From IMG/VR virus record IMGVR_UViG_3300042328_002602, positions 1 to 34,155 of that record: a stretch of 34,155 nt of DNA; one strand, 5' to 3'. Made by a program: the position numbers and the translations under genes. Positions 7,693 through 25,095 of this stretch are shown in pieces. A model generated the notes under the pieces. It did no database searches. It saw only the letters and a program-made list of their open reading frames with translations, and was not told where the DNA came from. The first letter of the stretch is position 1; each line of letters begins with the position of its first letter. Origin of the DNA: a virus.

Positions 7693-7693
7693 T

Positions 7694-7921: not shown

Positions 7922-7927
7922 TTTATA

Positions 7928-8137: not shown

Positions 8138-8160
8138 AATACTCGTCGTGTAACAATCGT

Positions 8161-8188
8161 ATAATACACCAAAAAAGTATCGTGTCAA
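8161..8188 (-). promoter_or_regulatory. Sigma70-type promoter for the minus glycan operon
   Basis: On the minus strand TTGACA (8188-8183) is followed after 16 bases by TATTAT (8166-8161). It is a consensus -35 with a one-mismatch -10 box. Transcription would start near 8153, about 15 bases upstream of the first ATG at 8137. It explains the expression of the operon down to position 1. Confidence 0.75.
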
Positions 8189-8212
8189 CCACCATTTAGC
8201 TTTTTTTGGACA

Positions 8213-8240
8213 TTGACAAAATGAAGATTCTACTTATTAT
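8213..8240 (+). promoter_or_regulatory. Sigma70-type promoter for the plus glycan operon
   Basis: On the plus strand TTGACA (8213-8218) is followed after 16 bases by TATTAT (8235-8240), the same boxes and spacing as the divergent minus promoter. The start point would be near 8247, leaving a leader of about 35 bases before the ATG at 8283. The two -35 boxes lie 24 bases apart, so a single regulator could control both arms. Confidence 0.55.
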
Positions 8241-8282
8241 TGGTGCAGACGGGGTGGATATAATCTCTTGAGTCTGATAATA

Positions 8283-9941
8283 ATGATAAACTCTACTATA
8301 GTAACAGGGATATGGGATCTTAGTAGAGATTCTCTAGGTGATGGCTGGGGAAGATCTTTCGATCATTATATAGATAATTTCACTAATCTGCTTAAAAATT
8401 TACCAAGCGATGTTCCTTTGATAGTTTTTATAGATAAAAATCATGAAAACTTAGTTTATCAATATAGGAATAAGGAAAATACCAGAGTTTATTATCATTC
8501 AAAAGAAGAATTTAAAGGTAATTTTTTTCCATTTTTTGATAAAATTCAACAAATAAGACAAAAAGAAGACTGGCTAAATCAAGTTGGGTGGTTAAGGGAT
8601 AGTACTCAGGCTAGATTAGAGTATTATAATCCTATGGTAATGAGCAAGTTATTTCTGCTTCATAATGCAAAGATATTTAATCCGTTCAATACCGAGTATA
8701 TTTTTTGGCTTGATGGAGGAATAACAAATACTGTTCATGCCGGATATTTTAGCCATGATAAGGTGCTTCATAAATTAGAAAATGTTGTTAAAAAATTCTT
8801 ATTTATTTGTTTTCCATATGAAACCACAACAGAAATACATGGATTTAATATTCATCATATGAATAAAATTTGCGATAACAATGTTAATAGGGTTGCTAGG
8901 GGCGGTTTTTTTGGAGGCCATATAGATTATATATCATCAGCTAATAATCTATACTATTCATTACTTAATGATACTTTATCACAAGATCTTATGGGAACAG
9001 AAGAAAGTATTTTTACTATAATGACATATAAAGATCCCGATATATATCATCATGAAATGATAGAGAGTAATGGTTTAATAAATACTTTTTTTGAAAAATT
9101 AAAAAATGATAATACCAATATACAAATAGAAGAGAAAACAAAAAATCGTAAACAACATAGTAATCAAAACATAAAACTATACATCAATGCTTTTAATTCT
9201 CCAGAACAACTGGAAATGGTTTTACAAAGTTTTAAAGACTATGATAATGATTTTATATATAAAACAGATAAGGTATTATTAAATAATTCTACAAAATCTG
9301 AATTATTTTCTAAATATGATGAGATATGCTCTAAATACAACTTTTCAGAACATCTAAAATACGGCAATAAAGGTGTTTGTGGATCTAGACAGTTTGCTGC
9401 TGAACATTTTTCTGATTCTGGTTCTAAGTATATGATTTTTTTCGAAGACGATATGCTTTTGGATTTGAATAATAATTGTAGTTTTGGATTTAATAAAAAT
9501 ATAAGTAACTTATTTAATCGTGTTATTAAGATAATGAAAATAGAAGAATATGATTTTCTTAAATTTAGTTTTAGTGAATTTTATGGCCATAATGGAGATC
9601 AGTGGAGTTGGCATAATGTGCCAAGCGAATTAAAGTTAAAGTATTTTGGTCGAATACAAAAAAAACCACTAACTAAATTTACTCATATCAAAAGTATCGA
9701 TGGACTACCTTATGCTGAAGGAGAGATTTACTACAGCAATTGGCCACATATTATAGATCAGGAAGGTAATCAAAAATGCTTTCTTGACGTTAAGTGGGAT
9801 CATCCTTTTGAGCAAACATGGATGAGTCATATATATACATTAACAGTAGAAAATAAAATCAAACCAGCTATTTTATTGGCAAGTCCTATAACACATAACA
9901 GAGTTCATTTTTATAATCATAATGAAAGAAGAGAAAATTAA
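8283..9941 (+). CDS. Two-domain glycosyltransferase: HtrL/YibB-like plus GT-A domain
   Basis: A 552-residue protein from the ATG at 8283 (an in-frame TTG at 8268 is less likely). The first half, about 1-270, follows the HtrL/YibB (WlaTC-like) pattern: IVTGIWDLSRDSLGDGWGRS, VFIDKN, then YNPMVMSKLFLLHNA and YIFWLDGGITN with the acidic metal motif, and ARGGFFGGH. The second half starts near 300 with IKLYINAFNSPEQLEMVL, has KGVCGSRQFAAEHF, and the acidic cluster MIFFEDDMLLD as DxD equivalent. HtrL relatives act in lipooligosaccharide assembly. Two catalytic sites in one chain suggest successive sugar additions. It heads the plus operon, overlapping the next start by one base (TAATG). Confidence 0.75.
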   Translation: MINSTIVTGIWDLSRDSLGDGWGRSFDHYIDNFTNLLKNLPSDVPLIVFIDKNHENLVYQYRNKENTRVYYHSKEEFKGNFFPFFDKIQQIRQKEDWLNQVGWLRDSTQARLEYYNPMVMSKLFLLHNAKIFNPFNTEYIFWLDGGITNTVHAGYFSHDKVLHKLENVVKKFLFICFPYETTTEIHGFNIHHMNKICDNNVNRVARGGFFGGHIDYISSANNLYYSLLNDTLSQDLMGTEESIFTIMTYKDPDIYHHEMIESNGLINTFFEKLKNDNTNIQIEEKTKNRKQHSNQNIKLYINAFNSPEQLEMVLQSFKDYDNDFIYKTDKVLLNNSTKSELFSKYDEICSKYNFSEHLKYGNKGVCGSRQFAAEHFSDSGSKYMIFFEDDMLLDLNNNCSFGFNKNISNLFNRVIKIMKIEEYDFLKFSFSEFYGHNGDQWSWHNVPSELKLKYFGRIQKKPLTKFTHIKSIDGLPYAEGEIYYSNWPHIIDQEGNQKCFLDVKWDHPFEQTWMSHIYTLTVENKIKPAILLASPITHNRVHFYNHNERREN

Positions 9942-10588
9942 TGTATGACCAAGAACTAGCTGATAGATTTATTAAAAATAATTCTGTTGTGCATTTTGAT
10001 AAAAAATCTTCAGACAATGATCTTTATCCGTATCTAGACTATTGTTTATCCAATTCATCAAAATCTCAAGACTATTTATTTATGGAGCTTGGGGTTTTTA
10101 CAGGAAATACCTTTAATTGTATACGCTCTTCGCTACCAAATAATATTAAGTTATATGGATTTGATACATTTACTGGATTACCGGAAGACTGGATGATTAA
10201 TGATAGAGATATATTATATGCAAAAGGAACATTTTCTTTAGATTATGTACCAAATAATACATATAATACAGAATTTATAGTTGGAAATATAGAAGATACA
10301 ATAGAACAATTTCTCAAAACTAATAATAAAAAAATTTCTTTTGTGCATTTTGATATGGATTTATACAGACCGACATTTTTTGCTTTGAAACAAATGCACA
10401 GTTATTTTTTAAATGGGGCTGTTTTAGTATTCGACGATTTTTACAATTTACCTGGATGGGAAAATTATTCATTTAAAGCTCTTTTAGATTATGTAAATTT
10501 ATACAATATTGAGTTTGAACCATTATCAACAGTAGGCTGGCGCGATGGATGGGCTTCTGCTGCTATTAAAATAATAAACAGGATATAA
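9941..10588 (+). CDS. TylF/macrocin O-methyltransferase-like protein
   Basis: A 215-residue SAM-dependent methyltransferase. YLFMELGVFTGNTF is motif I for S-adenosylmethionine, LYGFDTFTGLPEDW is the very characteristic block of the TylF/macrocin O-methyltransferase group, and VHFDMDLYRPTFFAL with VLVFDDFYNLPGW supply the aspartates that bind a divalent metal near the acceptor hydroxyl. TylF methylates a deoxysugar on a macrolide; relatives in surface-glycan loci methylate sugar hydroxyls. It overlaps the first plus gene by one base and ends 4 bases before the next ATG. Substrate unknown, family assignment firm. Confidence 0.85.
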   Translation: MYDQELADRFIKNNSVVHFDKKSSDNDLYPYLDYCLSNSSKSQDYLFMELGVFTGNTFNCIRSSLPNNIKLYGFDTFTGLPEDWMINDRDILYAKGTFSLDYVPNNTYNTEFIVGNIEDTIEQFLKTNNKKISFVHFDMDLYRPTFFALKQMHSYFLNGAVLVFDDFYNLPGWENYSFKALLDYVNLYNIEFEPLSTVGWRDGWASAAIKIINRI

Positions 10589-10592
10589 AATA

Positions 10593-11867
10593 ATGAAAAA
10601 TAAAAAATCAAAAAATAATACTATATTTATACAGATAGCTTCTTATAGAGATCCTCAGTTATTGCCTACACTAAAAGATATGCTTAACAAAGCAAAATAT
10701 CCAGAAAATCTAAGAGTAGGAATCTGTTGGCAACATGCGGAACAAGATTCTTGGGATAAATTAGACGATTATATAAATGATCCAAGATTTAAAATATTAA
10801 ATATTCCATATAATGAGAGTCAAGGAGTTTGTTGGGCAAGAAATATGGTTCAATCTCTGTATGATGGAGAAAAATATACACTACAACTTGATAGCCATCA
10901 TAGATTTGTAGAAAATTGGGATAGTGAATTAATTGATATGTTAAAAGATTTACAAAAAGAAGGACATAAAAAACCATTAATTACATCATATATTCCTAGT
11001 TTTGATCCGGATAATGATCCTGGCGCCCGTATTCAAGAGCCTTGGAAAATGAATTTTGACAGATTTATACCAGAAGGGGCCGTATTCTTTTTGCCTGCAT
11101 CATTTGATATTTGGGACGATAAGACTAAACCATTACCTGGTAGATTTTATAGTGCTCATTTTGCATTTACTGTTGGAGAATTTTGCAAAGAGGTTCCTCA
11201 TGATCCTAATTATTATTTTCATGGTGAAGAAATAAATATTGCAGTTAGAGCTTTTACTCATGGTTATGATATATTTCATCCACACAAGGTCTTGGTTTGG
11301 CATGAATATACAAGAAAAGGACGCACAAAACAATGGGATGATGATAAAGTTTGGGGCGATAGAAACTCTAAGAGCCATCTTAGAAATAGAAAATTATTTG
11401 GTATGGACGGCGAAATAAATGATATAGATTTTGGACCATATGGTTTTGGTAAAATTAGATCTCTTGAAGACTATGAACTATATTCTGGATTATGTTTTAG
11501 TAAAAGAGGTATCACGCAGAGGGTACAAGATCATAAGCCACCGCCTGATCCAGAATTATCTAATTTATCTCATAAAGAATTTCAAACTCATTTAATGAGT
11601 ATATTTAAACACTGTATTGATATTCAATATGGTCAAGTTCCAGAAAGTGATTATGATTTTTGGGCAGTTGCTTTTAAAGATAATCAAGGTGAAGATATTT
11701 TCAGAAAAGATGCAGATAAAGATGAAATTCTAAGAGTAAAAAATGATCCTGATGGATACTGTAAAATATGGAGAGAATTTCAAACAAGTGTCAAACCGAC
11801 TAGTTGGATAGTTTGGCCTCATAGTATTAGTAAAGGATGGGCGGAACCCATAATTGGATATTTATGA
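10593..11867 (+). CDS. GlcNAc-transferase-like protein (GT60, PF11397 type)
   Basis: A 424-residue protein matching the GlcNAc family (PF11397), whose best-studied member is the Skp1 hydroxyproline GlcNAc-transferase. The start IFIQIASYRDPQLLPTLKDM is the family's most recognisable block. QGVCWARNMVQSLYDGEKYT and LQLDSHHRFVENWD follow, with the DSHHRF acidic/histidine site corresponding to DxD. Later FFLPASF, HFAFTVGEFCKEVPHDPNYY, FHGEEINIAVRAFTHGYD and HPHKVLVWHEY fit the family core. The final 130 residues are less conserved and may form a separate domain. A GGATAT-type weak ribosome site precedes ATG. Its stop overlaps the next ATG (ATGA). Likely a cytoplasmic transferase that adds N-acetylglucosamine to a protein or glycan. 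Confidence 0.85.
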   Translation: MKNKKSKNNTIFIQIASYRDPQLLPTLKDMLNKAKYPENLRVGICWQHAEQDSWDKLDDYINDPRFKILNIPYNESQGVCWARNMVQSLYDGEKYTLQLDSHHRFVENWDSELIDMLKDLQKEGHKKPLITSYIPSFDPDNDPGARIQEPWKMNFDRFIPEGAVFFLPASFDIWDDKTKPLPGRFYSAHFAFTVGEFCKEVPHDPNYYFHGEEINIAVRAFTHGYDIFHPHKVLVWHEYTRKGRTKQWDDDKVWGDRNSKSHLRNRKLFGMDGEINDIDFGPYGFGKIRSLEDYELYSGLCFSKRGITQRVQDHKPPPDPELSNLSHKEFQTHLMSIFKHCIDIQYGQVPESDYDFWAVAFKDNQGEDIFRKDADKDEILRVKNDPDGYCKIWREFQTSVKPTSWIVWPHSISKGWAEPIIGYL

Positions 11868-12694
11868 AAAAAATAAAATTTATAGATGAAAATCTAATAG
11901 GTCAAAATAATTTATCTAGATATATTAACTACGAAACTGGATGGTCTAGAGATTGCAATGACTATGATATTGCCATCTATACAGATAGATTATGTTTTTT
12001 AGATAATATAGATTCTACAAAAGAAAATTACGCATGGATTATTGAGCCGCCTATAGTCAATGGCGATAATTATATAAAAATTACTAAACCAGAATTTTTT
12101 AATAAATTCAAATTAGTTTTTTCATATAATAAATGGTTGGACGAAAGAATTCCAAATTTTCAATTTGTGCCTCACGGAGGAACTTGGCTAAGAGAACAAG
12201 ATATTGATATATATCTAAAAAATAAAATGTGTAGTATGATTTTTTCTGATAAACAGTGGAATGCTGGACATAGATTAAGATCAGTAGTATACGAAAATTT
12301 AAAAAATAAATCTTTTATTGATTTCTTTGGATCTGGCGTTAATAATCCTATAGAGTTTAAGGTTGATGCTCTAAAAGATTATATGTTTTCTATTACTATG
12401 GAAAATGAAGGTCCACAACATCTATTTTCTCCAGATACTGATTATTTTAGTGAAAAACTACTAGATTGTTTTTTAACTGGAACCATACCAATTTATTATG
12501 GAAATAAATCAATAATAAATTATTTTGATATAAATGGAATAATACTATTTGAAGATTCATCGTCTATAGACTCTATAATAAATAATCTATCGAAAGAATT
12601 ATATTTATCAAAAATACAGTCAATAAAAAATAATTTTGCAATAGCTCACACATATATGCACCCAGAAAAAATTATAAACATCTATGCACAATAA
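11864..12694 (+). CDS. GT10 fucosyltransferase-like protein
   Basis: I start at the ATG at 11864, which overlaps the upstream stop (ATGA), instead of an earlier in-frame ATG at 11837. The product of 276 residues contains the GT10 C-terminal signature: SITMENEGPQHLFSPD, then DYFSEKLLDCFLTGTIPIYY and G with the trailing NK. In alpha-1,3/4-fucosyltransferases this region binds GDP-fucose, with the asparagine, glutamate and lysine conserved. The first part (residues 1-120, including FVPHGGTWL) is unlike eukaryotic stems, as in bacterial and phage members. It overlaps the next gene by 11 bases. It probably transfers a deoxysugar such as fucose, but donor specificity is inferred. Confidence 0.75.
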   Translation: MKKIKFIDENLIGQNNLSRYINYETGWSRDCNDYDIAIYTDRLCFLDNIDSTKENYAWIIEPPIVNGDNYIKITKPEFFNKFKLVFSYNKWLDERIPNFQFVPHGGTWLREQDIDIYLKNKMCSMIFSDKQWNAGHRLRSVVYENLKNKSFIDFFGSGVNNPIEFKVDALKDYMFSITMENEGPQHLFSPDTDYFSEKLLDCFLTGTIPIYYGNKSIINYFDINGIILFEDSSSIDSIINNLSKELYLSKIQSIKNNFAIAHTYMHPEKIINIYAQ

Positions 12695-13469
12695 TATTAT
12701 TATAACAGGAGCTAATAGTCCATATTTTATATCGCTTCTTACTCTTATAAATAGCATACATAAATATAGTTATAATATAATAGATGCTATTATTGTATAT
12801 GATTTTGGTCTCGATTCATCAGAGATACAAAGATTAAGATCTTATAAAAAAGTAGTAGTAAAAAATATTTCTGAAAATTTTGATATCTATGAGTCTATAT
12901 CTACAGTTAAAACAAAATGTCATTTTTTAAAAATGTTTACTCTTTTTGATTCGATAGCATCGGCTAAAAAAGTTTTATGGTTGGACGCCGGAGCCTGTGC
13001 CTTAGATTCTATACAATCAATTTTTGATATTATTGATAAAGAAGACATATTTTTAGTTGGAGATGTTCATTTAAATAAAAACTATACTCATCAAAAATGT
13101 ATAGATATTATGAAAGCCACAGAAGATGAACTAAATGATAAGCAGTTGTGGTCTGGGCTTGTTGGGTTTAAAACAGATGGTGTCTATACACCTTTAATTA
13201 AAGAAGCATGGGGCTATTCTCAAGTGGAAGGGTGTATTGATGGGTATGAAAGCAACCATAGACACGATCAAAGCGTCCTGTCTATTCTAGCATCAAGATA
13301 TAAATGTAAAAGATACGATATAGATAGATATGGATATTGGACAGATATTAATAGAAATTTAGAAAAAGCTTTAGAAAATAATAGTATAATTTTTGCGCAT
13401 AGAAAAGGATATACCAATCATAATGATTTAATTATTGATTATGTGTGTAAAAAATATGAAAACTATTAA
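12684..13469 (+). CDS. DUF1647-like GT-A glycosyltransferase
   Basis: A 261-residue GT-A-type protein. IIITGANSPYFISLLTLINS is the opening strand and helix, and IIDAIIVYDFGLDSSEIQRL is the block I associate with DUF1647-like transferases. VLWLDAGACALDS holds a single acidic residue in place of a full DxD, as in related transferases with WLDAG. LWSGLVGFKTD, then NHRHDQSVLSILA are core elements, the final HDQS matching the donor loop of this group. It starts inside the end of the GT10-like gene (11-base overlap) and runs 14 bases into the next one. Likely a sugar transferase of unknown donor. Confidence 0.7.
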   Translation: MHNNIIITGANSPYFISLLTLINSIHKYSYNIIDAIIVYDFGLDSSEIQRLRSYKKVVVKNISENFDIYESISTVKTKCHFLKMFTLFDSIASAKKVLWLDAGACALDSIQSIFDIIDKEDIFLVGDVHLNKNYTHQKCIDIMKATEDELNDKQLWSGLVGFKTDGVYTPLIKEAWGYSQVEGCIDGYESNHRHDQSVLSILASRYKCKRYDIDRYGYWTDINRNLEKALENNSIIFAHRKGYTNHNDLIIDYVCKKYENY

Positions 13470-14184
13470 AGATATTCCAAAATTTGTTATTAATTTAGAT
13501 CGTAGACAAGATAGATTACATTCTTTTGATAAAGAAATGAGATATATTGGTTGGAAATATCATAGGTTCTCTGGTATTGATACCAATAGCTATATTGGAT
13601 GTGCGCAATCCCATCAAAAATTATCCTCAATAATTCTTGAAGAAAATTATGATTATGCAATGGTAATGGAAGACGACATTAGTTTCATGCCATATGCTAA
13701 AGAATTACTAGATAATATTGATAATGAATTATTTAATACTAATTTAGATTGGGATATTTTTCACCTTGCGCCTTCTATACATAGGCCATTAAATCAATAT
13801 AATAAATATCTTCTTGATTTAACTAATGTTCCTGAAAAAGATCCTACAAAACATAGAGGAATATTTGGTACTAGTGGATTTATTTTAACAAAAAAAGCAT
13901 GTGAATATATAATTGAATGGGATACTAATAAATTTGTACATAATTCTCATCAACAAATGGCTATTGATGAATATTTTGATAAAATAATATATCCCAATAC
14001 TAAAAGCTTTTGTGGAATATTACCTATAGTAGTACAAAGACCAGATTTTTCAGATATCAATAAAACATATGACACTAATCATTATCTTATGACATATAAC
14101 TGGAATGTATACTGTCCTATAAAACTAGAATCACGAATGCTTGATTACGATCTATGTCAATCTCTTAAAAACTATGAAAACTAA
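13456..14184 (+). CDS. GT25-like glycosyltransferase
   Basis: The start is taken at the ATG at 13456 (MKTIKDIPK), as the residues before it are not family-like; it overlaps the end of the previous gene by 14 bases. The 242-residue product begins PKFVINLDRRQDRLHSF, the hallmark strand and arginine-rich loop of GT25 (LPS galactosyltransferase-like). Then FSGIDTNSYIGCAQSHQKLS and YAMVMEDDISFMPYAKELL give the EDD acidic motif that binds Mn and UDP-sugar. GIFGTSGFILTKKACEYII is the conserved glycine loop, and QQMAIDEYFD the catalytic helix. These enzymes add galactose or glucose to LPS or collagen. The gene overlaps the next by 11 bases. Confidence 0.8.
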   Translation: MKTIKDIPKFVINLDRRQDRLHSFDKEMRYIGWKYHRFSGIDTNSYIGCAQSHQKLSSIILEENYDYAMVMEDDISFMPYAKELLDNIDNELFNTNLDWDIFHLAPSIHRPLNQYNKYLLDLTNVPEKDPTKHRGIFGTSGFILTKKACEYIIEWDTNKFVHNSHQQMAIDEYFDKIIYPNTKSFCGILPIVVQRPDFSDINKTYDTNHYLMTYNWNVYCPIKLESRMLDYDLCQSLKNYEN

Positions 14185-15058
14185 GATAGTATCTGCAATA
14201 TATTTTGATCTTTATGGAACATCTCTTGGTGGTCGTCCAGGACGTAATGATCATTATTTATATAGCTTAAATAGCATCATGAATATTAGTAATGCAGAAT
14301 TTATAGTATATACTAATGATAAAAATAAAATTGATACTTTTTATCAAGAGTTTTATCCAGATAAAGTTGATAGATTATCTACTATAGAATACGATTTATA
14401 TAATACGGAATATTCTAGTAAAATAAATAAAATTAAAGATATAGAATCAACTAAACAGTCAGTAAGATGCATTGAATTACAATATTCAAAATTATCTTGG
14501 ATTAAATTAAATGCTCATGATTGCGATTATATATACTGGATTGATGCTGGGTTATGCTATAGCGGATTAATTCCAGATAAATATTTAAATATTCATACTG
14601 GTAAATATTTTGATAGTTATTATGGATCTAATATATTTACAAATGAACTATTAAATAATTTAAATAACTATACAAATAATCAAGTTTTTGTATGCGCAAA
14701 AGAAAATAGAGATTTTTATTGGGATTCCTCTATTCCTTGCAAATATTTTATTGATGATTGTCAATCATGCTATCATATTATTGGTGGTTTATTTGGAGGA
14801 TATCTATCATCTATAAATTATATATGTGATAAATTTAGTATTTTAACTAATACTTTATTAGATAATGAGCCTGTTTTATATAGCGAAGAACAAATACTGA
14901 GTTGTTTATTTTTTAGTTATCCAAATTATTTTAAAAATAAAATGTTTCATATATGGTGGCATGAAAATAATATATCAGGAGCGATGCCAAAAGAGGATGG
15001 GTTAGAATTACTTAAAAGAATTAGAAGTTTCTATAAAATTATAGAAGAATTCATATAG
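14174..15058 (+). CDS. HtrL/YibB-like glycosyltransferase
   Basis: I use the ATG at 14174 (MKTKIVSAIYF), preceded by an upstream stop that it overlaps. The 294-residue product has the HtrL/YibB-like pattern: IVSAIYFDLYGTSLGGRPGR, EFIVYTND, then YSKLSWIKLNAHDCDYIYWI with DAGLCYSG as acidic metal site, and HIIGGLFGGYLSSI, SEEQILSCLFF. It is a paralogue in type of the N-terminal domain of the first plus gene. The window's plus operon ends here, tail to tail with a minus-strand protease gene that it overlaps by 8 bases. Likely transfers a sugar in surface-glycan assembly. Confidence 0.75.
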   Translation: MKTKIVSAIYFDLYGTSLGGRPGRNDHYLYSLNSIMNISNAEFIVYTNDKNKIDTFYQEFYPDKVDRLSTIEYDLYNTEYSSKINKIKDIESTKQSVRCIELQYSKLSWIKLNAHDCDYIYWIDAGLCYSGLIPDKYLNIHTGKYFDSYYGSNIFTNELLNNLNNYTNNQVFVCAKENRDFYWDSSIPCKYFIDDCQSCYHIIGGLFGGYLSSINYICDKFSILTNTLLDNEPVLYSEEQILSCLFFSYPNYFKNKMFHIWWHENNISGAMPKEDGLELLKRIRSFYKIIEEFI

Positions 15059-15983
15059 TAGGATACATAATCCCGTAACCTTGATATTGTTTAATATCAC
15101 TATAATTTGGATCATTCAATGGCTTGCATGATCTCTTAAAAACTTCAATATAGTCGTTATAACTAGATAATCTATATTTTTTACTTCTATTATTATAACT
15201 TAATAAGAGAGATGCTAGTCCTACAGCAAATGGATTACTCATGCTGGTTCCGCTCATTTTCGCATATTGTTTATTTGGCGCACACCCCATAATATTATGA
15301 CCAGGAGCTAGAAAATCTAAACTATCTCCACTACACGAAAATGGCGTTCTGCGTAAATTTTCATCTATTGCTCCTATAGCCATAGTATTTTCACATTTAG
15401 CAGGATACATTATATCTGAATTTGGTCCACTATTACCAGCGGCACAAAATATTATCTTTCCTTTATTAACAGCATAATTAATAGCTTTTTCTATATCTGA
15501 ATTTGGTCCACTTGAACCTAGACTCATTGTCATAAAATTAACAATAGATTGATCAGCACTCCAATATATGCCATCTACAATTGAATTAATAGATCCACTA
15601 CCTCTATCATTAAGAACCTTTACTGGTATAATTTTTGTTTGAGGAGCAACACCAACCATGCCATATCCATTATTACAAGCTGCTATTGTAGATGACACAT
15701 GGGTACCATGACCATTTTTATCTATTGGTTTTTCAGATATATTAACAAAATTTTTTCCATCTAATAAATTACTTTGTATGTCTGGATGATCTAAATCGCA
15801 TCCTGTATCTAATACAGCACATACAACACCATCTCCCTGACTATGTGTCCAAAAACTAGGAATATCGAATTTATTAAGTTCCCATCCTAATTCTTGAGGA
15901 TCACTTGGAGACAAGCCATACAGCGGCTCTGTTACATATGGAAGTAATCCTATTTTTGTTTTATTAAACCATTTTTTAAACAT
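15051..15983 (-). CDS. Intracellular-subtilisin-like serine protease (S8)
   Basis: A 310-residue S8 protease with a complete catalytic triad: D59 in VLDTGCDLDHPD, H92 in NGHGTHV and S247 in SGTSMSNP; the oxyanion asparagine is N184 in AAGNSGPNSD. No signal peptide is present. The short N-terminal extension contains LLPYVTEP at 13-20, which resembles the LIPY/F pro-segment of Bacillus intracellular subtilisins that blocks the active site until it is cut. Such enzymes are made as inactive cytoplasmic dimers and activated in starving cells. Here the enzyme could process host or virion proteins. It overlaps the plus-strand gene by 8 bases and has a 1-base gap to the secreted protease gene upstream, suggesting joint translation. 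Family call is very secure. Confidence 0.93.
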   Translation of the reverse strand: MFKKWFNKTKIGLLPYVTEPLYGLSPSDPQELGWELNKFDIPSFWTHSQGDGVVCAVLDTGCDLDHPDIQSNLLDGKNFVNISEKPIDKNGHGTHVSSTIAACNNGYGMVGVAPQTKIIPVKVLNDRGSGSINSIVDGIYWSADQSIVNFMTMSLGSSGPNSDIEKAINYAVNKGKIIFCAAGNSGPNSDIMYPAKCENTMAIGAIDENLRRTPFSCSGDSLDFLAPGHNIMGCAPNKQYAKMSGTSMSNPFAVGLASLLLSYNNRSKKYRLSSYNDYIEVFKRSCKPLNDPNYSDIKQYQGYGIMYPTI

Positions 15984-15984
15984 A

Positions 15985-16746
15985 TTATTTTTCTTTCAAT
16001 AATTCTTGTGTTGTATTTTCTATCCAATCTTTATATACACTAACTCTTGTATGAGCACTGACTGCCCCATACTTTGATTTACCTTTATTAATTTTGTCTT
16101 CTATAACACCAGAATGGATACCAGCAAGATCATTTTCTATAAATAGTCCACCCCCGCTATCTCCGGGAGCAATGATAAACTCCAATTCTGTTTTACCTGT
16201 TTTTACTGATGGAGAACAGAATAATAAATATTCATTAACAGCGTCAATAAAATTAGATCCTGCTCTTTTTTTACTTTCTTTGCTTGGCAATATACCTGTG
16301 ATAAATGTTCCAGTAGAACCATATCCAGCCAAAGAACAAATAGAGCCATTTTCTTGATTATTTTTATATATATCTGGATACCAATCTAATCCTATATCTC
16401 CCGAGACCAAACATACTGCTATATCGTGTCTTCCAAATTTTTCGTAGTCATAATTTTTATGAATTACTATTTTTTTAACTGGTAATAATTTTGTACTAAA
16501 AATTACAACAGCGGTTTTATTATTATGAAATATATGAGCAGCTGTTATAATAATATTATTTTTGTATGCTACTACAGATCCAGAATATGAAGTATCGTCC
16601 TGTTTTCTTCCTATTATTTGACCAATATATGGAAATTTTAAACCATAATTTATGTATTTTTCATCTGGAGTATTAGGATCTATTGTTCCAGAAAAAGATA
16701 AAGTTCCATATATTATTACTAATAGTACCAAAAATATTTTTATCAT
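15985..16746 (-). CDS. Secreted trypsin-like serine protease (S1)
   Basis: A 253-residue protein that starts with a clear signal peptide (lysine at 3, hydrophobic residues 4-18, small residues up to 20). The mature part has the trypsin-like triad: H71 in TAAHIF, D108 in RHDIAV and S197 in GDSGGG. The middle GYGSTGTF and the late LAGIHSGV loop fit the S1 fold. Secreted phage-encoded trypsins are uncommon. It follows the HNH gene, whose coding end covers the first 74 bases of this gene in another frame, and precedes the intracellular subtilisin. The mature protein would act in the periplasm or outside the cell, or be a virion component. Its segment after the signal, GTIDPNTPDEKYINYG, is reminiscent of planctomycete secreted proteases. 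Confidence 0.88.
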   Translation of the reverse strand: MIKIFLVLLVIIYGTLSFSGTIDPNTPDEKYINYGLKFPYIGQIIGRKQDDTSYSGSVVAYKNNIIITAAHIFHNNKTAVVIFSTKLLPVKKIVIHKNYDYEKFGRHDIAVCLVSGDIGLDWYPDIYKNNQENGSICSLAGYGSTGTFITGILPSKESKKRAGSNFIDAVNEYLLFCSPSVKTGKTELEFIIAPGDSGGGLFIENDLAGIHSGVIEDKINKGKSKYGAVSAHTRVSVYKDWIENTTQELLKEK

Positions 16747-17050
16747 AAAACTGAGCCTTTATTTTGTAGGGCTTGTTGATTACTTTATTATAATACACCC
16801 TACAATCTTTTATCACATCCTCATTCCAACTGTTCCAATCCATGAGATGCCCAAAAACAAAATGGCACGTTTTACATAAAGTGATTAAATTTTTTGGATC
16901 TAATTCTTTTGATTGATCCACATTTACAGGGACTATATGATGAACTTGAAGATTCTTAATAGATGCGCATGATTGACAAAATGATTCTTTTTTTAGATGA
17001 TCAAGTCTAGTTTTTTTCCACTTATATGACCTGGATAGTATAGAAAACAT
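16673..17050 (-). CDS. HNH endonuclease
   Basis: The start is set at the ATG at 17050, which overlaps the preceding stop (TGATG). The product of 125 residues contains a zinc-ribbon type HNH motif: CQSC near residues 25-28, LQVHHIVPV with the two histidines at 37-38, the asparagine in PKNLITL, and CKTCH near 59-63. This is the typical HNH nuclease with two zinc-binding cysteine pairs that cleaves DNA; free-standing copies in phages are homing endonucleases or act in packaging. Its 3' end runs 74 bases into the secreted-protease gene in a different frame, which suggests insertion next to, or read-through over, an older junction. Tail residues after 90 are not part of the HNH domain and are rich in aromatic residues. 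Confidence 0.85.
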   Translation of the reverse strand: MFSILSRSYKWKKTRLDHLKKESFCQSCASIKNLQVHHIVPVNVDQSKELDPKNLITLCKTCHFVFGHLMDWNSWNEDVIKDCRVYYNKVINKPYKIKAQFYDKNIFGTISNNIWNFIFFWNNRS

Positions 17051-17610
17051 CAAATTTTATACTCATGATTAGGATCATATGTTAAAAATGATGCTATTGT
17101 ATATCTAACTCCTTTTGTTATTTTTGTTACGCCATGTAAACAATCTAATCCGCCTGTGTGTATAGCATTATAACCTACTTTTGGCAGTACTTGCAGATTA
17201 TCTTTATTAGGATAATATAAAATTCCACCTTCAAAATCTTCATTCAAAAAAGTAACAGTTCCAAAATCTCTCCAAGGAAATGGATGTTGACTACCATTTG
17301 GCTCAACAGCATCAGCATGAGGATGCAACTCGTATCCTTCTGTCCATCTTACTATGTGTAGACTATCTATATATAAAGGTTTTTCTATATTAGATTGTTT
17401 AATAAACTCAGATATCATATAATCTTTACCACTCTTAATTATATTTATAATTTCTTCATCTTTAATTTGGTTAATATATATTTGTCTACCTTGCCAATAA
17501 TTAGATCCTAATTCACCAAAATCGGATTGATGACTATTGATATAATCTATAATCTTAGTTGTATTTGGTTTAATGATTTTATTTTCAAAGATAATTGGTT
17601 TGTCATTCAC
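17050..17610 (-). CDS. 2OG-Fe(II) oxygenase (prolyl-hydroxylase-like)
   Basis: I take a GTG start at 17610 because a strong GAAGAGG ribosome site lies about 6 bases ahead of it; an ATG at 17625 is a second option. The product of 186 residues has the jelly-roll iron site: H and D in ELHPHADAV, the distal histidine in CLHGVTKI and the 2-oxoglutarate arginine in GVRYTIASFL. PFPWRDFGTVTFLNEDFEGG and LYYPNK are the P4H-like strands. Such enzymes hydroxylate proteins, lipids or sugars using iron, oxygen and 2-oxoglutarate. It overlaps the GDPD-like gene by 8 bases (start inside its end) and the HNH gene by one. Substrate unknown, possibly a phage structural protein. Confidence 0.85.
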   Translation of the reverse strand: MNDKPIIFENKIIKPNTTKIIDYINSHQSDFGELGSNYWQGRQIYINQIKDEEIINIIKSGKDYMISEFIKQSNIEKPLYIDSLHIVRWTEGYELHPHADAVEPNGSQHPFPWRDFGTVTFLNEDFEGGILYYPNKDNLQVLPKVGYNAIHTGGLDCLHGVTKITKGVRYTIASFLTYDPNHEYKI

Positions 17611-18064
17611 GTAACACCTCTTCATAAAAAAATATATTATCAGTACATATTCCACGACTACGTTTCAGTATATCTATATGATAATCAAATAGTTCTGGTA
17701 AAACACAAATTGTATTATTATCCAATTCGCTACCTGGATATGCCCAAATGATTTGTTTAGACGTTAATGTATATTTATCATTTTCGTGGAAAAAATAATT
17801 TAATATACCATATAGATTATTGCATCGACTAAACGCTTGTAAATTTTTGCAATGAATCCATAGCTTATTGGAATATTTTATTAGCCAATCGGTTTTAATT
17901 ATGTATTGCGGAGCATCATGTCCAAGATACCAATTGTTATCAATATATCTAATATCTATTTCAACGTCATAACCAAGAGATATGACATTTTTAATAGTGT
18001 CTGGATGATTTTCTTTGTCTTCTATCTTTTCTTTTACATTACCTCTATGAGAAATTAGTATCAT
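17603..18064 (-). CDS. GDPD-like phosphodiesterase
   Basis: A 153-residue protein beginning MILISHRGNV, followed by HPDTIKNVISLGYDVEIDIR and YLGHDAPQY. These match the catalytic HR, ExD and HD elements of glycerophosphodiester phosphodiesterase TIM barrels. It is shorter than full GDPD enzymes (about 240 or more), so strands late in the barrel are missing or compressed. Short versions are found in glycan loci next to nucleotidyltransferase/HAD genes, as here. It overlaps the HAD-nucleotidyltransferase fusion gene by 20 bases. It may hydrolyse a phosphodiester in a surface glycan or its precursor, but enzymatic competence is uncertain. No signal peptide. Confidence 0.75.
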   Translation of the reverse strand: MILISHRGNVKEKIEDKENHPDTIKNVISLGYDVEIDIRYIDNNWYLGHDAPQYIIKTDWLIKYSNKLWIHCKNLQAFSRCNNLYGILNYFFHENDKYTLTSKQIIWAYPGSELDNNTICVLPELFDYHIDILKRSRGICTDNIFFYEEVLRE

Positions 18065-19421
18065 GATTTTGTAAAAAATATTGTAGATCTTCTGGAGTTC
18101 CTAATCCCCACATGCCTTCGATATTAAATATTGCTATTTTTTTCCCATCCTCTATAGCCTCATTAAATACTGGGCAAACATAAAATTCATTATTATGTCT
18201 TTTATTTTTTCGTATCATTTGCTCTGCATATTTTACATAATCAGAACCCTTTTTCCAATAGTATATCCCAACTGTTGCTATGTCAGATATTGGATTTTTT
18301 TCTGCAACTTCCGTTACAAATCCTTTATCGTCCACTTTAACAAAAGACCATTTTGGATGAGTAGATTTAAAGGTTAATATGCCAGCATCTACATCTTGTT
18401 CTTGCATTTTGTACATAAACTCACTGCTGTTCCAATCAACATATTGATCAGAGTTGGCAATAATCAAAGGATTATCATTATTTATTAATTCTTTAGCCAA
18501 CAGAGTTGTACAAGCAGCGCCATCTGTTACTGAATCTACAGTGATAATATTAGTATTATTAGCTTTAACAATTAAAGGCAATAGACTATTTAAATTATAT
18601 TTCTCAGAATGTAATTTTTGTACTATAAAAGTATGGGGACTATCAAATGACAGATTTTCAACTATCATTTGTATCATCGGCTTTCCACGAACATCAATAA
18701 GAGGTTTAGGAAATGTATATCCGGCTTTTTCAAAACGACTACCAGCCCCGGCCATGGGTATCAAAACATTTAATTTAGAATCTTGCCACATGATCTGATC
18801 GTTACTTCTTGTGTTGTACGAATCTATAATCTGAAATAGATTACTATTACTGAGGTCATTTGAATTTTTTACTCTATATATATTAGATCCGGATCTTTTA
18901 GCTGCAAGTAGACCGTGGGGAGAATCTTCAATTATTAATGTCTCTTTAGGCAAAACGCCAAAAGAGATCATTGCTTTCCAATACATTTCAGGATATGGTT
19001 TTGATTTCTCCACATCTTCATTACTAATAATTAAATCAATATATTTTATGATTTGTAGTTTACATACAGCTCCATATATTGTTTTTCTAATAGAATTAGA
19101 ACAAATAGCAATCTTATAATTAGCTTTTGATAATTGTGTAATCTGATCTAATAGTTTAGTATTAGGTACTAAGTTAGATAATTTTTCATGAGTTATGTTT
19201 TGTTTTTTAGTCCAAATTTCATTATGTAAATGTTCTGGCAAATCTTTCTCTTTACTTAAAAGATTTAATTTTTCTTTTGTTTTTAGCCCATCATATTTAC
19301 TAATATGCTCGTCCCACGTTATTTTATAGCTATCAGCTAAAACTTCATTCAAAGCATCATAATGTATCTGTTTTGCGTCCAACAGAACACCATCTAAATC
19401 AAATATAATAAGTTTAATCAT
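18045..19421 (-). CDS. HAD phosphatase fused to nucleotidyltransferase
   Basis: A 458-residue two-domain protein. Residues 1-200 form a HAD domain of beta-phosphoglucomutase type: D8 and D10 in IIFDLDGVL, S108 in AICSNS, K141 in EKSKPYPEMY, and E165/D166 in IIEDSPHG. A linker around 200-215 leads to a nucleotidyltransferase domain: LIPMAGAGSRFEKAGYTFPK with the GxGxRF nucleotide loop, then GKPMIQMIV, NSDQYVDW (metal aspartate) and GTPEDL near the C-terminus. Together they fit making an NDP-activated sugar or polyol phosphate, with the phosphatase removing a phosphate earlier in the path. It overlaps the GDPD-like gene by 20 bases and the next gene by 4. Which nucleotide and sugar are used cannot be read here. 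Confidence 0.85.
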   Translation of the reverse strand: MIKLIIFDLDGVLLDAKQIHYDALNEVLADSYKITWDEHISKYDGLKTKEKLNLLSKEKDLPEHLHNEIWTKKQNITHEKLSNLVPNTKLLDQITQLSKANYKIAICSNSIRKTIYGAVCKLQIIKYIDLIISNEDVEKSKPYPEMYWKAMISFGVLPKETLIIEDSPHGLLAAKRSGSNIYRVKNSNDLSNSNLFQIIDSYNTRSNDQIMWQDSKLNVLIPMAGAGSRFEKAGYTFPKPLIDVRGKPMIQMIVENLSFDSPHTFIVQKLHSEKYNLNSLLPLIVKANNTNIITVDSVTDGAACTTLLAKELINNDNPLIIANSDQYVDWNSSEFMYKMQEQDVDAGILTFKSTHPKWSFVKVDDKGFVTEVAEKNPISDIATVGIYYWKKGSDYVKYAEQMIRKNKRHNNEFYVCPVFNEAIEDGKKIAIFNIEGMWGLGTPEDLQYFLQNHDTNFS

Positions 19422-20164
19422 TTTGATATAATTTTCATACGAATACTATTATTAATAGTTGGGATATAGTTACTATTCCATAAATACTCAGATATTAGCC
19501 CTTCTGGATGCTGAGGAAATATATTTTGATTTAATAAATACGATTCATATATATTACTATAATAATCCATTGCCTCAGAAGTTCCGTGGGCGAATTGATC
19601 ATTTGGCATATATTTAGGGCCGATAGTATCCAAAATATTTTTCATATTATTATTAAATGGCTTGTCTATATTTTCATTTGGAGCTAAATACAAAGGATAA
19701 TCTGTCAAAAGTTTTAAATGCTCAAAGAACAAATCAAATCTGCATCGTATAACTACATCATATTTAAAATCGTAATTAATTTCATATTGTTTTTTTAGAT
19801 TATTACTTTGATAAATACTATAATACATCATAATAGCATTAAAAAATTTAACATTATTATTAGATGACAATTTATTGATAAAAAAATCTTTATCTGGATA
19901 TTCTACTAAAATTTTTTTTGGACTATATAATGAAAATAATTTTGAATTTATAAGATAATTATCATTTAAATACTTATCATAATTAGAGATATTATATTCT
20001 TTACAATAATGTAAATTGTCTGGAGTTTTTGGATATAGCCCATTATATAGCCATGTATGTATAAAAATATCGCAATTATATGGTTTAATTATATTAATAT
20101 ACTGGCTATCGAAACATTTTTCGTATGCTCTAGTCTGACCAGATAGACATAAAGCTATTCTCAT
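19418..20164 (-). CDS. Putative glycan-locus protein with SGQTR motif
   Basis: A 248-residue protein. IALCLSGQTRAYEKCF at the start, CDIFIHTWLYNGLY a little later and YDVVIRCRFDLFFEHL in the middle form a pattern I have seen in uncharacterised transferase-like proteins of surface-glycan and giant-virus loci; the CRFD could play the role of an acidic donor-site motif. GPKYMPNDQFAHGTSEAMD and QHPEGLISEYLW are further conserved-looking blocks. There is no signal peptide. It overlaps the DUF6065 gene and the HAD fusion gene by 4 bases each. Glycosyltransferase activity is an inference only. Confidence 0.55.
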   Translation of the reverse strand: MRIALCLSGQTRAYEKCFDSQYINIIKPYNCDIFIHTWLYNGLYPKTPDNLHYCKEYNISNYDKYLNDNYLINSKLFSLYSPKKILVEYPDKDFFINKLSSNNNVKFFNAIMMYYSIYQSNNLKKQYEINYDFKYDVVIRCRFDLFFEHLKLLTDYPLYLAPNENIDKPFNNNMKNILDTIGPKYMPNDQFAHGTSEAMDYYSNIYESYLLNQNIFPQHPEGLISEYLWNSNYIPTINNSIRMKIISK

Positions 20165-20913
20165 TTATCTAATCCTGTTTGATGATCAGAAAATTTATTG
20201 TCATAAATATCTACTCCCCTCCAATATCTTTTTCCATTTCTATGTTTTTTTTGTTGATCAATAGTTGATCTTTCAACACCAAAAGCTTTAGCGCATTCTC
20301 TTTCTTTTTGTATGCTTTCATTATCGAATACTTTTGTTGCATCTACAATGCTATATTTATCTATAAAATGTCTTGGATATGGTATAATACAACCAATATA
20401 ATCTTCTTTATTTATTTTTATAGTATGATTAGGTCTTGTAATTCTTAGATTATATGTAAAATCTCTTCGCAAATTATCGGTTTCGACAACGCCTGTCATA
20501 TGATATATACCATCTATAATATAATTTGGTGGATTTATTGTCATCAAATTAATTCCTGGAGATGTTCTTAATTGATATGGCATTTGTATTGTAAAAGTAC
20601 CCATTCCGAAATGAGCTTTTATAGATTGTAGATTATGTGTTTTTTTATATTCTTCTTCTGGAGTTAATATATTGACTTTGACTGACTCAACAGCATTTCC
20701 TCCATCCCAAATTACTTCAAAATCATATAAAGATTTTACTACAAATCCATATTGATTACCAATAACTAATGGTAAACAATGATAAGCATGATCAATAAAC
20801 CAGCTTCTTTTTGAAGAACCCTTTAGAGACTGAAATACACTATCTATATAGTCTTGAGTTTGCCATTGTGGCTCGTAAGAAATAGCCACAATATTAGTTT
20901 CTGGAATTATCAT
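20161..20913 (-). CDS. DUF6065-like protein
   Basis: A 250-residue protein starting at ATG 20913 behind a clear AAGGAG ribosome site. The block WFIDHAYHCLPLVIGNQYGF with FEVIWDGG is what I associate with DUF6065, a family scattered over bacteria and phages with unknown function. TFTIQMPYQLRTSPGINLMT and DYIGCIIPYPRHFID follow, a beta-rich arrangement. The C-terminus, RECAKAFGVERSTIDQQKKH with KRYWRGVD, is charged. It overlaps the SGQTR gene by 4 bases. Known family members occur near oxygenases and sugar genes, which agrees with this context, but no reaction can be assigned. Confidence 0.6.
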   Translation of the reverse strand: MIIPETNIVAISYEPQWQTQDYIDSVFQSLKGSSKRSWFIDHAYHCLPLVIGNQYGFVVKSLYDFEVIWDGGNAVESVKVNILTPEEEYKKTHNLQSIKAHFGMGTFTIQMPYQLRTSPGINLMTINPPNYIIDGIYHMTGVVETDNLRRDFTYNLRITRPNHTIKINKEDYIGCIIPYPRHFIDKYSIVDATKVFDNESIQKERECAKAFGVERSTIDQQKKHRNGKRYWRGVDIYDNKFSDHQTGLDK

Positions 20914-20915
20914 CT

Positions 20916-20937
20916 AATACTCCTTATAGAGAGTATT
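20916..20937 (-). promoter_or_regulatory. Hairpin overlapping stop and ribosome-binding site
   Basis: AATACTC (20916-20922) and GAGTATT (20931-20937) are perfect 7-base arms around an 8-base loop. The hairpin covers the stop codon of the actin-like gene and the AAGGAG ribosome site of the DUF6065 gene, whose GAG is paired in the stem. Ribosomes finishing the actin-like gene would melt it and couple translation of the second gene. This is inference from the sequence. Confidence 0.45.
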
Positions 20938-21937
20938 ATAGTACTTGAGATGCTATTAAGCAACCTTTCGCTACAGCATGAAGAGGATCGTTGGCATGAA
21001 CAACTTCTTTAATTGGTACAGGAAAATTATTATCTATTAATTTTTGATGAAATGTTTCAACGTATCCTTTTGCTAATGATGTGCCGCCAGCGATAACAAC
21101 TTTTAGAGGTTCTTTAAATTTTGGTAAAGATTTATGGTTTACTAATGTTATACTCAAATGTTTAGTGGTATAATCTATTAATCTTTCATAATACGAACAG
21201 ACCGCTTGAAGCACAGGACTATCACTAGCCTCACCTATTCTGTAAGAACCATGTTCTTTTTCTGCTTGGACTACACTATCTGGTTCGCCTATAGCAACAG
21301 CCACCATTCGATCAATCCAGTCTCCAGATTTGGTTGTACTAAAAGTTACTGTTGGTTCACCATTTAACATAACACAAACATTAGTCATACCAGCCCCACA
21401 ACTGACTCCAATCCCAGTATAATCATTTTCTTCTAATCCAGCATAGCATAGAGCTTCTGCTTCATTAATCGCTCTAGCATCATAACCCTGCTCTGCTAAT
21501 ATTGTTTTTACAACATCTTCATGATATCCAACATCAAAATCATCATCTTCTTGATCAACTGGCTGCGCCGGTTTACAAAATATTAATTTTTCGCCTGACT
21601 CTGAAGCCTTCCCGACTACTTCTTTCAGAATAAAAGCTAGTACTTTTTTTGCTTCTTTCTCTTTTGACGACACAACACCTTTATACATAGGTCTTTTTGC
21701 GCTATCGTTTCTTTCTATGGCTTTTTCTATAGCATCTTTTCCTAAGAGAATAAAAGAATTGTCACTATCTTTAATAAATACTTTACCGTTTAATCCTTTT
21801 TCTATCATCTTAGTAGCAACAGGAGTTGTCGGTTTTATAATGTAAAAAGCATCTCTAAAATCGGTATACTTAATACCTTCATCGTTCTGCTCTGCTAAAA
21901 CAATAAAACTTGTACCCACGTCTAAGCCTTTAGCCAT
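20936..21937 (-). CDS. Actin-like ATPase (MreB/ParM/Hsp70 fold)
   Basis: A 333-residue actin-fold protein. Phosphate-1 motif is GLDVGTSFIVLAE at 4-16; connect-1 is AINEAEALCYAGL around 157-168; phosphate-2 is IGVSCGAGMTNVCVML near 176-191, and the adenosine motif is VVIAGGTSLAKGYVETF near 285. TTKSGDWIDRMVA resembles the MreB and Hsp70 strand before subdomain IIA. The protein could be a filament former in the style of ParM or MreB, or a chaperone-like relative. A GGAGAAG ribosome site lies before the ATG. It is followed by a gene for a small membrane-anchored protein upstream on the same transcript. Filament formation in phage segregation is only an inference. Confidence 0.85.
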   Translation of the reverse strand: MAKGLDVGTSFIVLAEQNDEGIKYTDFRDAFYIIKPTTPVATKMIEKGLNGKVFIKDSDNSFILLGKDAIEKAIERNDSAKRPMYKGVVSSKEKEAKKVLAFILKEVVGKASESGEKLIFCKPAQPVDQEDDDFDVGYHEDVVKTILAEQGYDARAINEAEALCYAGLEENDYTGIGVSCGAGMTNVCVMLNGEPTVTFSTTKSGDWIDRMVAVAIGEPDSVVQAEKEHGSYRIGEASDSPVLQAVCSYYERLIDYTTKHLSITLVNHKSLPKFKEPLKVVIAGGTSLAKGYVETFHQKLIDNNFPVPIKEVVHANDPLHAVAKGCLIASQVL

Positions 21938-21950
21938 GTTTCTTCTCCAG

Positions 21951-22256
21951 TCATTTTTTTAGATTTTTTAGCTTATTTATAGAATCAGTAATATTTTCCG
22001 TAGATTGTTTTGATGTTGCTAGTTTATCGTATTTTTTTTCTAAATTATCAGTAATAATTTTTGGAATAAATTTTGTTTCATCAATATCGACCATAGACAT
22101 TCCTTCTTTTTTCTTTAAATTCTGATTATTGGATAAGTATCTATCTGTAATATTTATTGTATTAATAGAAGATATTTTGCCTAAAATATATCCGATAAAT
22201 AAACTTATAATATTTAAAATTAGTAATATTAATATAATTATATTGCTATTATTCAT
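21951..22256 (-). CDS. Small membrane-anchored protein
   Basis: A 101-residue protein with one N-terminal transmembrane segment: IIILILLILNIISLFIGYIL runs from about 5 to 24 and is followed by a lysine and a polar cytoplasmic or periplasmic tail. The tail has a conserved-looking IDETKFIPKIITDNLEKKYD and a lysine-rich end. I do not recognise a family. It ends 13 bases before the start of the actin-like gene, so the two are probably made together. A membrane anchor for the actin-like protein is one possible role. No clear ribosome site is visible, which lowers confidence somewhat. Confidence 0.6.
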   Translation of the reverse strand: MNNSNIIILILLILNIISLFIGYILGKISSINTINITDRYLSNNQNLKKKEGMSMVDIDETKFIPKIITDNLEKKYDKLATSKQSTENITDSINKLKNLKK

Positions 22257-22279: not shown

Positions 22280-23785
22280 TTATATGAAGACGCCAAAATG
22301 ATCTTTTATAGAAAAATTAAAGTACTTATTGTACTCTGGGTCATTTTCTATCGACCAGTATTTTATTTTATCATCTGGTAAAGGCCATCTTTCTATTAGG
22401 TTTGGATTTTTTCTAAAATATTTCCATTGTCTATTAACAGAATATGCTGGGCCAGAATGAAACCAATTAACAAGACATGATCTATCATAATCACATCCTA
22501 TAAATGCATGATATGAATTATGAGTAATTTCAAATATAAATAATCTATTATTAATAGGCTCTATAGTTTTTATCAGTCCTCCATTATAGCTAGAGTATAT
22601 TCCTGTTCCACCGCCATCGTATGAACTATTATCGTTATTAAAATAATATATCATAGCTATTGTTCGCATAACTTTGATTGTGTCAGGATTAGTTTCGGTA
22701 TCGTCAGTATAATTAGTTCCTCCAGTACATACAAATTTATTATTGCTATTTATAAATGAAACTATATTCATATCTCTATGAATAAAACCGCTTTTAGATG
22801 GACTTTTATGAAAATGAACAGATGGTGCAACGTGTTTTGTTGTTACAATATTAAAAGTTTTTTCAACAAAATTTTTTAATTCTTCTGATGCAAAAAAATC
22901 ATAGCCATCCACTAGTTCTTTTGTAGACAAACCATAAATATATGCATCATAATTACTAGTTGCGTTTTTTTGATTTTTATATGGAACTGTTTTAGATATA
23001 AATATTGAAAATTTATTACATAATGATGCATAGATATTATCATTAAATAAATTATCTATAATAATATGATTAAATGGTTCATTAAATTTTTGTATTGTTA
23101 ATAGTTTTGATTCGTAATGATGTATCTTACATTCATATCTATATTTTACAACACTTAAACCCTCTCTATTCACAGATATAATTTTTTCATAGCTATCTTT
23201 TTGTATATAATTATATAATAATACAGTTAATTTTCTAACTGATATAAGATTTGTATTTGCTAAAACTTTTGAATTATCATGTGTCCAATATATAGTCCCA
23301 TCTTTTTCATAAAATCTTCCTGTATAATCATTTGATCCATATACTATTGGTGGTCTTACAACACACACATTATCAAAATTTATAGCATAATTTTCTAACT
23401 CTTCTTTATTTTTACAATATTCAAATATATTATTATTTTCAAAATTTTCTTTTGATTGTTTATCAGTCCCATCAGCACATGTTGTTGATATCAAAATATA
23501 TTTTTTACAATTTATATTGGGATGTATTTTTTTAAAATCGCCAAGATTATAGCAAGAAAAATCTACTACTAAATCGAATGATGAGTCGTGTAGATTCTCG
23601 CATTCTCCATTATATCTATCTATATAGATATGTTTAATTTTATCCTTAAATAAATCTGGATTTGTAATCCCTCTATTTGCAAGATATATATCAGATTTAG
23701 AATTTTGTAATAATAAATATTCTACAAAATCCCTACCTAACATTTGTGTACCGCCAATAATTAGAATTTTTTTATAGTTTATCAT
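22280..23785 (-). CDS. SDR (epimerase) domain fused to 2OG-Fe(II) oxygenase domain
   Basis: A 501-residue fusion. Residues 1-215 are an extended SDR: GGTQMLGRDF at 11-20 as NAD(P) loop, STTCADG near 100 as active strand and YCKNK at 123-127 as the tyrosine/lysine pair; the sequence ending near 215 is shorter than a typical epimerase. Residues about 230-460 show an oxygenase: FNHIIIDNLFND as opening, H336 and D338 in GFIHRDMN for iron, GGGTGIYS in the middle, RLFIFEITHNSYHAFIG with H426 as third iron ligand. One chain may join sugar oxidation/epimerisation to hydroxylation. It overlaps the DUF1501 gene by 4 bases. I know of no common named fusion like this, so it is worth attention. Confidence 0.75.
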   Translation of the reverse strand: MINYKKILIIGGTQMLGRDFVEYLLLQNSKSDIYLANRGITNPDLFKDKIKHIYIDRYNGECENLHDSSFDLVVDFSCYNLGDFKKIHPNINCKKYILISTTCADGTDKQSKENFENNNIFEYCKNKEELENYAINFDNVCVVRPPIVYGSNDYTGRFYEKDGTIYWTHDNSKVLANTNLISVRKLTVLLYNYIQKDSYEKIISVNREGLSVVKYRYECKIHHYESKLLTIQKFNEPFNHIIIDNLFNDNIYASLCNKFSIFISKTVPYKNQKNATSNYDAYIYGLSTKELVDGYDFFASEELKNFVEKTFNIVTTKHVAPSVHFHKSPSKSGFIHRDMNIVSFINSNNKFVCTGGTNYTDDTETNPDTIKVMRTIAMIYYFNNDNSSYDGGGTGIYSSYNGGLIKTIEPINNRLFIFEITHNSYHAFIGCDYDRSCLVNWFHSGPAYSVNRQWKYFRKNPNLIERWPLPDDKIKYWSIENDPEYNKYFNFSIKDHFGVFI

Positions 23786-25053: not shown

Positions 25054-25095
25054 AAAACATCCTTTTCTGGTTATATTATACACTATTATAGCAAA

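Follow-up and report, generated by a model that had tools for sequence, protein, structure and literature searches.

A phage gene pair encoding a predicted intracellular-subtilisin-type protease and a predicted exported S1 protease

The role of free proteases encoded by phages is seldom explained. The question is raised here by a virus record of 34,155 bases (30% GC), analysed over its whole length and called the window below, in which the gene for an S8 subtilase without a signal peptide lies beside that of an S1 protease with a predicted one. Do the two enzymes form a unit working on both sides of the host membrane, as an earlier note on this sequence had suggested, or are they neighbours without a common purpose?

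Results

Organization of the protease locus

Both genes are read leftward (Table 1), and the Pfam scores of their products, for Peptidase_S8 and Trypsin respectively, exceed the cut-off. S1 lies directly upstream of S8, a single base (15984) separating the stop codon of the former from the start of the latter, as described in the earlier note. The S8 gene closes the leftward gene run, its 3' end sharing 8 bases with the end of a gene that runs towards it. In relatives, the S1-S8 junctions consist of gaps of 0-7 bases or, mostly, overlaps of 4-20 bases, which agrees with the single-transcript layout proposed before; two larger overlaps, of 58 and 119 bases, probably reflect upstream alternative starts. 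The idea of a two-gene unit held for the S1-S8 pair itself but not for the extent of the unit, which is larger and takes in HNH, volactin-like actin, small membrane protein and RuvB genes upstream. Judging from gene order, the block appears to be an operon in which these four genes usually accompany the pair. A search for promoters and terminators gave 33 matches versus 28 +/- 4.5 in shuffled sequences, that is, no excess in this AT-rich DNA. Dense arrays of glycosyltransferase, epimerase and nucleotidyltransferase genes flank the block (window positions 5042-14184 and 18045-20913), and their content varies between close relatives.

Table 1. Features of the protease locus (window coordinates)
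Feature	Position	Strand	Remarks
S8 subtilase, ISP-type, without signal peptide	15051-15983	-	310 aa; Pfam PF00082 1.6e-48
LLPY codons, S8 residues 13-16, putative inhibitory pro-segment motif	15936-15947	-	aligns with LIPF/LIPY
S8 catalytic Asp59	15807-15809	-	invariant
S8 catalytic His92	15708-15710	-	invariant
S8 catalytic Ser247	15243-15245	-	invariant
S1 (chymotrypsin-fold) protease with predicted signal peptide	15985-16746	-	253 aa; Pfam PF00089 5.8e-15
S1 predicted signal peptide, residues 1-19 (SFS/GTIDP)	16690-16746	-	hydrophobic leader, -3,-1 rule
S1 catalytic His71	16534-16536	-	invariant
S1 catalytic Asp108	16423-16425	-	invariant
S1 catalytic Ser197 (GDSGGG)	16156-16158	-	invariant
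HNH endonuclease gene	16673-17053	-	Pfam HNH 3.2e-9; overlaps S1 start by 74 nt
Volactin-family actin-like protein	20936-21937	-	PF25216 6.6e-61
Small membrane protein	21951-22256	-	hydrophobic N-terminus
RuvB-like ATPase	25156-26055	-	NCBIfam PRK00080.1 8.7e-91, above cut-off

Relatives were collected by scanning viral contigs. The S8 alignment scan returned 241 relatives, the best 80 of which were used, and the S1 scan returned 38; after reduction at 90% identity, 59 S8s (all from the best 80 of 241) and 59 S1s were available. Counts across these relatives are not independent, since all the sequences come from related phages.

The S8 enzyme carries an ISP-like pro-segment

The S8 product has the Asp-His-Ser triad and the subtilisin fold of peptidase family S8 (subtilases). 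Residues D59, H92 and S247, together with the oxyanion residue N184, are invariant in 59/59 relatives (from the best 80 of 241), and the AF2 model of the protein has a pLDDT of 94.7. Like intracellular subtilisins (ISPs), the enzyme has neither a signal peptide nor a large chaperone-type propeptide: Peptidase_S8 is its sole Pfam domain and 58 residues precede the catalytic Asp. Absence of a hydrophobic leader, already claimed for this protein, extends to the family, the maximal 11-residue Kyte-Doolittle value having a median of 0.56 in the same 59 S8s. These proteins contain 6.9 Cys on average, three of them invariant, a content that would fit a reducing cytosol. Some of the same phages harbour a second, longer S8, with open frames of 418-557 aa (L127 2283-3650 (+), G004, G007, G009, G013, G030); an N-terminal LExRxLLS-like motif in the L127 protein, without a Pfam match, presumably recalls planctomycete surface proteins.

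The LLPY tetrapeptide had been read as a match to the inhibitory LIPY/F pro-segment of ISPs. Several observations uphold this reading. Among the 59 S8s (from the best 80 of 241), pairwise identity reaches 83% at residues 13-16, while amounting to 26% at residues 1-9, 24% at residues 10-12 and 38% at residues 17-29. The motif takes the forms LLPY (31 sequences), LLPH (18), LLPF (6), LFPY (3) and LLPS (1); thus, the segment recurs in related viral S8s, where the earlier note had proposed to look for it, with L13 and P15 invariant in 59/59. A chance origin of LLPY is ruled out by the conservation of LLP far above its flanks. The N-terminal motif is of the LIPY/F type, its variant fourth residue being a real difference. 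When the PDB was searched with a profile of the S8 family, the top two hits were the intracellular serine proteases 7xr8 and 7y6m, whose LIPF/LIPY aligns register-for-register with LLP[Y/H/F]. In ISPs, a strand made of propeptide residues Phe4-Leu6 spans the active site, with Pro8 pushing the scissile bond out of position; mutating Leu6/Ile7 of LIPY/F lifts the inhibition (PMC6220982). The AF2 model of the phage S8 has a strand exactly at I11-L13, in the register of the B. clausii propeptide strand Phe4-Leu6, and short strands at 129-130 and 155-157, at the position of the substrate-binding segments. The model suggests that the pro-segment occupies the active-site cleft, and at this segment the phage enzyme probably works like an ISP.

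The phage S8 as an ISP variant

ISPs (B. clausii 2wv7/2x8j, Planococcus 6f9m, the B. velezensis homologue L219) share with the phage S8 the S8 fold and triad, the DTGC and CAAGN motifs, the lack of a signal peptide and, at the N-terminus, a short pro-segment whose L-x-P-aromatic motif stands in the matching register. In the phage S8, however, the linker following the motif is 4-6 residues longer, the fourth motif position is often His (18/59, from the best 80 of 241), and 44-46 residues lie between motif and catalytic Asp, versus 42-44 in ISP-clade proteins. The ISP calcium-binding loop near the S1 pocket corresponds to residues 186-193 of the B. clausii enzyme (PMC6220982). An ISP-type loop is missing from the phage family: the calcium-site loop has 8 residues in 59/59 phage S8s (from the best 80 of 241) as opposed to 12 in 5/5 ISP-clade comparators. 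A Foldseek search with S8 ranked B. clausii ISP precursors 2nd, 3rd, 5th and 6th; fold alone does not discriminate an ISP from an ordinary subtilisin, because ordinary subtilisins score nearly as well. In the phylogenetic tree, the phage S8 family is a separate clade (100/100) that groups beside the ISPs with 92/86 support. Small S8s of Planctomycetota (L234-L238) resemble the phage enzyme in size (313-357 aa) and in having no obvious signal peptide, and score 291-313 bits against the profile, but they lack LLPY; a topology uniting them with the phage S8s scores below the best tree without being rejected (p-AU 0.32). The S8s of Bacillus phages SP-15 and Goe3 are phage proteases of the ISP clade (100/98). 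That of SP-15 lacks LIPY, that of Goe3 has VIPH, and no S1 is annotated beside either. Nothing on phage ISPs was found in the open-access papers searched.

Because of the shortened calcium loop, the separate clade and the planctomycete grouping that is not rejected, the phage S8 is best described, on these comparisons, as an apparent ISP variant, not a standard ISP. The ISP mode of regulation cannot be transferred unchanged to the phage enzyme, given the shortening of the loop that carries the calcium switch; for the same reason the trigger of the phage S8 probably differs from that switch, and the idea of a simple calcium trigger at lysis is weakened.

The S1 enzyme has a predicted signal peptide and a non-tryptic pocket

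The S1 product displays the His-Asp-Ser triad, with TAAH and GDSGG motifs, and the fold of peptidase family S1, with H71, D108 and S197 invariant in 59/59 relatives. Its AF2 model (pLDDT 89.7) matches kallikrein, chymase and elastase in the PDB. With the chymotrypsin-family proteases elastase and chymase it shares the fold (TM about 0.65) and the triad; identity is nonetheless 15-22%, the phage enzyme has a non-tryptic pocket residue and, unlike them, a strongly conserved mature N-terminus, GTIDPNTPDEKYIEYG. The epithet "trypsin-like" used in the earlier note is therefore accurate for the chymotrypsin fold and not for the specificity: Asp189 of trypsin was sought in the S1 alignment and I/L was found instead, six residues before Ser197, making trypsin specificity unlikely. 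Such specificity defines a sub-type and is not required for membership in family S1.

Residues 2-19 are hydrophobic in 59/59 S1s with 21% identity, and residues 20-35 are 67% identical. The maximal 11-residue Kyte-Doolittle value has a median of 2.90 in the 59 S1s, and the -3,-1 rule is obeyed directly before the conserved GTIDP in 58/59. The AF2 model has a helix at 2-14, after which residues 15-20 form a junction modelled with low confidence. By these rules, S1 has the n-h-c signal peptide and the signal-peptidase site of a Sec-exported protein; its N-terminus looks like that of a protein whose signal peptide is cleaved, as predicted earlier. The leaders of S8 and S1 thus place the two proteases in opposite predicted compartments, one on each side of the membrane, again in line with the earlier note. 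A second, shorter S1 paralogue is found downstream of the S1-S8 pair in two loci (L036 6247-6915 (+), L031 6266-6931 (+)).

Linkage of the two genes in related phages

Adjacency also holds in relatives, where the earlier note had suggested checking it: S1 immediately precedes S8 in 44/59 loci, lies 1-1.6 kb upstream in 3 and just downstream in 2 (loci from the best 80 of 241 S8 relatives). The pair is kept across dozens of related viruses. An S1 match was present in 23/25 contigs chosen for S8, one of them disrupted; at least one S8 contig lacks S1, and in three of the 25, distances of about 7, 19 and 20 kb separate the genes. In G017 (C1:136934-137676), S1 is broken by stops and frame changes beside an intact S8. 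Among 15 contigs chosen for S1, 11 (large) have no S8 match and one has the longer S8 type only. Neither gene strictly needs its partner, since each occurs without the other. The block order RuvB - small membrane protein - volactin - HNH - S1 - S8 recurs across relatives: within the flanks examined, volactin lies upstream of S8 in 38/58 loci, the small membrane protein in 37/58, and HNH is present in 39/58 (loci from the best 80 of 241). Among GenBank phages, relatives of the volactin (PF25216) were seen only in two uncultured huge phages, LR745208 and LR756511.

Phage lineage and probable host

TerL of a 178-kb relative (G002) reaches no more than 25% identity with Bacillus phage Stahl-type terminases; the putative capsid protein of this relative shares 21% identity with gp27 of phage G. 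No S1 match was found in 50,697 phage records at E 0.01. These large phages belong to a poorly known lineage essentially absent from those 50,697 records. A DUF1501 protein of the window (23782-25083, minus strand) aligns along almost its entire length with proteins of many Planctomycetota genomes at 55-58% identity, this identity comparison having covered Planctomycetota and DUF1501 being present in only 7/32 phage records. DUF1501 matches numbered 16 in one planctomycete genome; three genomes from other groups had 1, 0 and 0. The identity and abundance of DUF1501 in planctomycete genomes make Planctomycetota the probable hosts. Another relative (G001) has three DUF1501 genes.

Discussion

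The sequences show two intact enzymes, a homologue of the ISP pro-segment, opposite targeting signals and conserved linkage. On this basis, we give about even chances to the view that S1 and S8 are a co-expressed phage proteolysis unit acting in two compartments; our preferred reading is that host proteins are digested inside and outside the membrane while the pro-segment keeps S8 latent. The scheme that we infer for S8 latency, activation trigger, substrates, timing and joint purpose is as follows. S8 would be a subtilase synthesized in latent form in the cytoplasm of the host. Strand I11-L13 and LLP[Y/H/F] would lie across the active site, and the proline would keep the neighbouring peptide bond too far away to be cut, as it does in ISPs. 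Once the pro-segment is displaced or clipped, the enzyme would degrade cytoplasmic proteins. S1 would be exported via the Sec pathway, lose its leader before GTIDP and cleave envelope or periplasmic proteins with non-tryptic specificity. Acting together, they might break down host protein for reuse, make the cell weaker ahead of release, or both. A more elaborate version, in which a latent ISP variant devoid of the calcium loop and a secreted S1 form a dedicated two-compartment module, expressed with a volactin-type actin and jointly released to dismantle a Planctomycetota host, is put forward tentatively.

The two genes could also be neighbours without a joint function, S8 belonging to the RuvB-membrane protein-volactin operon and S1 travelling with a mobile or homing HNH gene, so that shared ancestry and HNH-driven insertion would account for their proximity. 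We regard this as possible but somewhat doubtful. HNH is directly upstream of S1 in 34/57 non-redundant S1 loci, adjoins S8 where S1 is missing (L062, L076, L081, L086, L094) and accompanies S1 in the S1-only phages L113 and L121; the 7-20 kb separating S1 from S8 in three contigs also fits. As some phages have S1 but no S8, some S8 genes have no S1 next to them, and HNH accompanies either gene, adjoining one or the other in most arrangements, gene order passed down by descent may explain part of the adjacency. However, S1 is permuted around S8 inside the block (L046, L047, L049, L112), in three cases without HNH (L046, L047, L049), and 23/25 S8-chosen contigs have S1. With at least three different placements of S1 around S8, the linkage survives rearrangement, which argues for more than passive gene order; given the relatedness of all these phages, it falls short of proof that the two enzymes work together.

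A maturation role, also raised in the earlier note, would make S8 or the pair a protease of head or structural proteins. The presence of giant structural proteins and the rarity of known prohead proteases leave room for one: S77 is absent from 36/38 contigs, the two with it lacking one or both of our enzymes, and S78 from 27/27. Neither S8 nor S1 matches PF03420 or PF04586 (S77 and S78), which rejects that identity for the pair and bears on S77/S78 only. In the 178-kb relative, however, the pair (162-164 kb, minus strand) is about 60 kb from the structural module (about 6-100 kb, plus strand), and in a 205-kb relative it is likewise far from the portal and capsid genes, on the other strand. 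An exported enzyme cannot act in the cytoplasm, so that S1 would have no role in prohead assembly. Moreover, a 517-aa protein of no known family (L193 10391-11944 (+)) lies between the portal and cement/capsid genes of the 178-kb relative, the usual place for such a protease, and is by position a candidate scaffold or head protease. The distance from the structural module and the export of S1 make head maturation less likely, and we consider it improbable. Equally improbable, in our view, is a function against host defence or competitors, with S8 destroying immune effectors and S1 removing surface receptors (superinfection exclusion), although the compartments fit and the pair is near rIIA/rIIB-type genes; expression of rIIA/rIIB in T4 precedes that of late genes.

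Under the favoured reading of proteolysis in two compartments, the safety-catch pro-segment of Bacillus-type ISPs has been kept, beside an exported protease, in a large-phage lineage almost absent from GenBank. Such a design predicts an autoinhibited enzyme inside the cell and an active one outside, and could show how phages restrain a destructive protease until it is needed.
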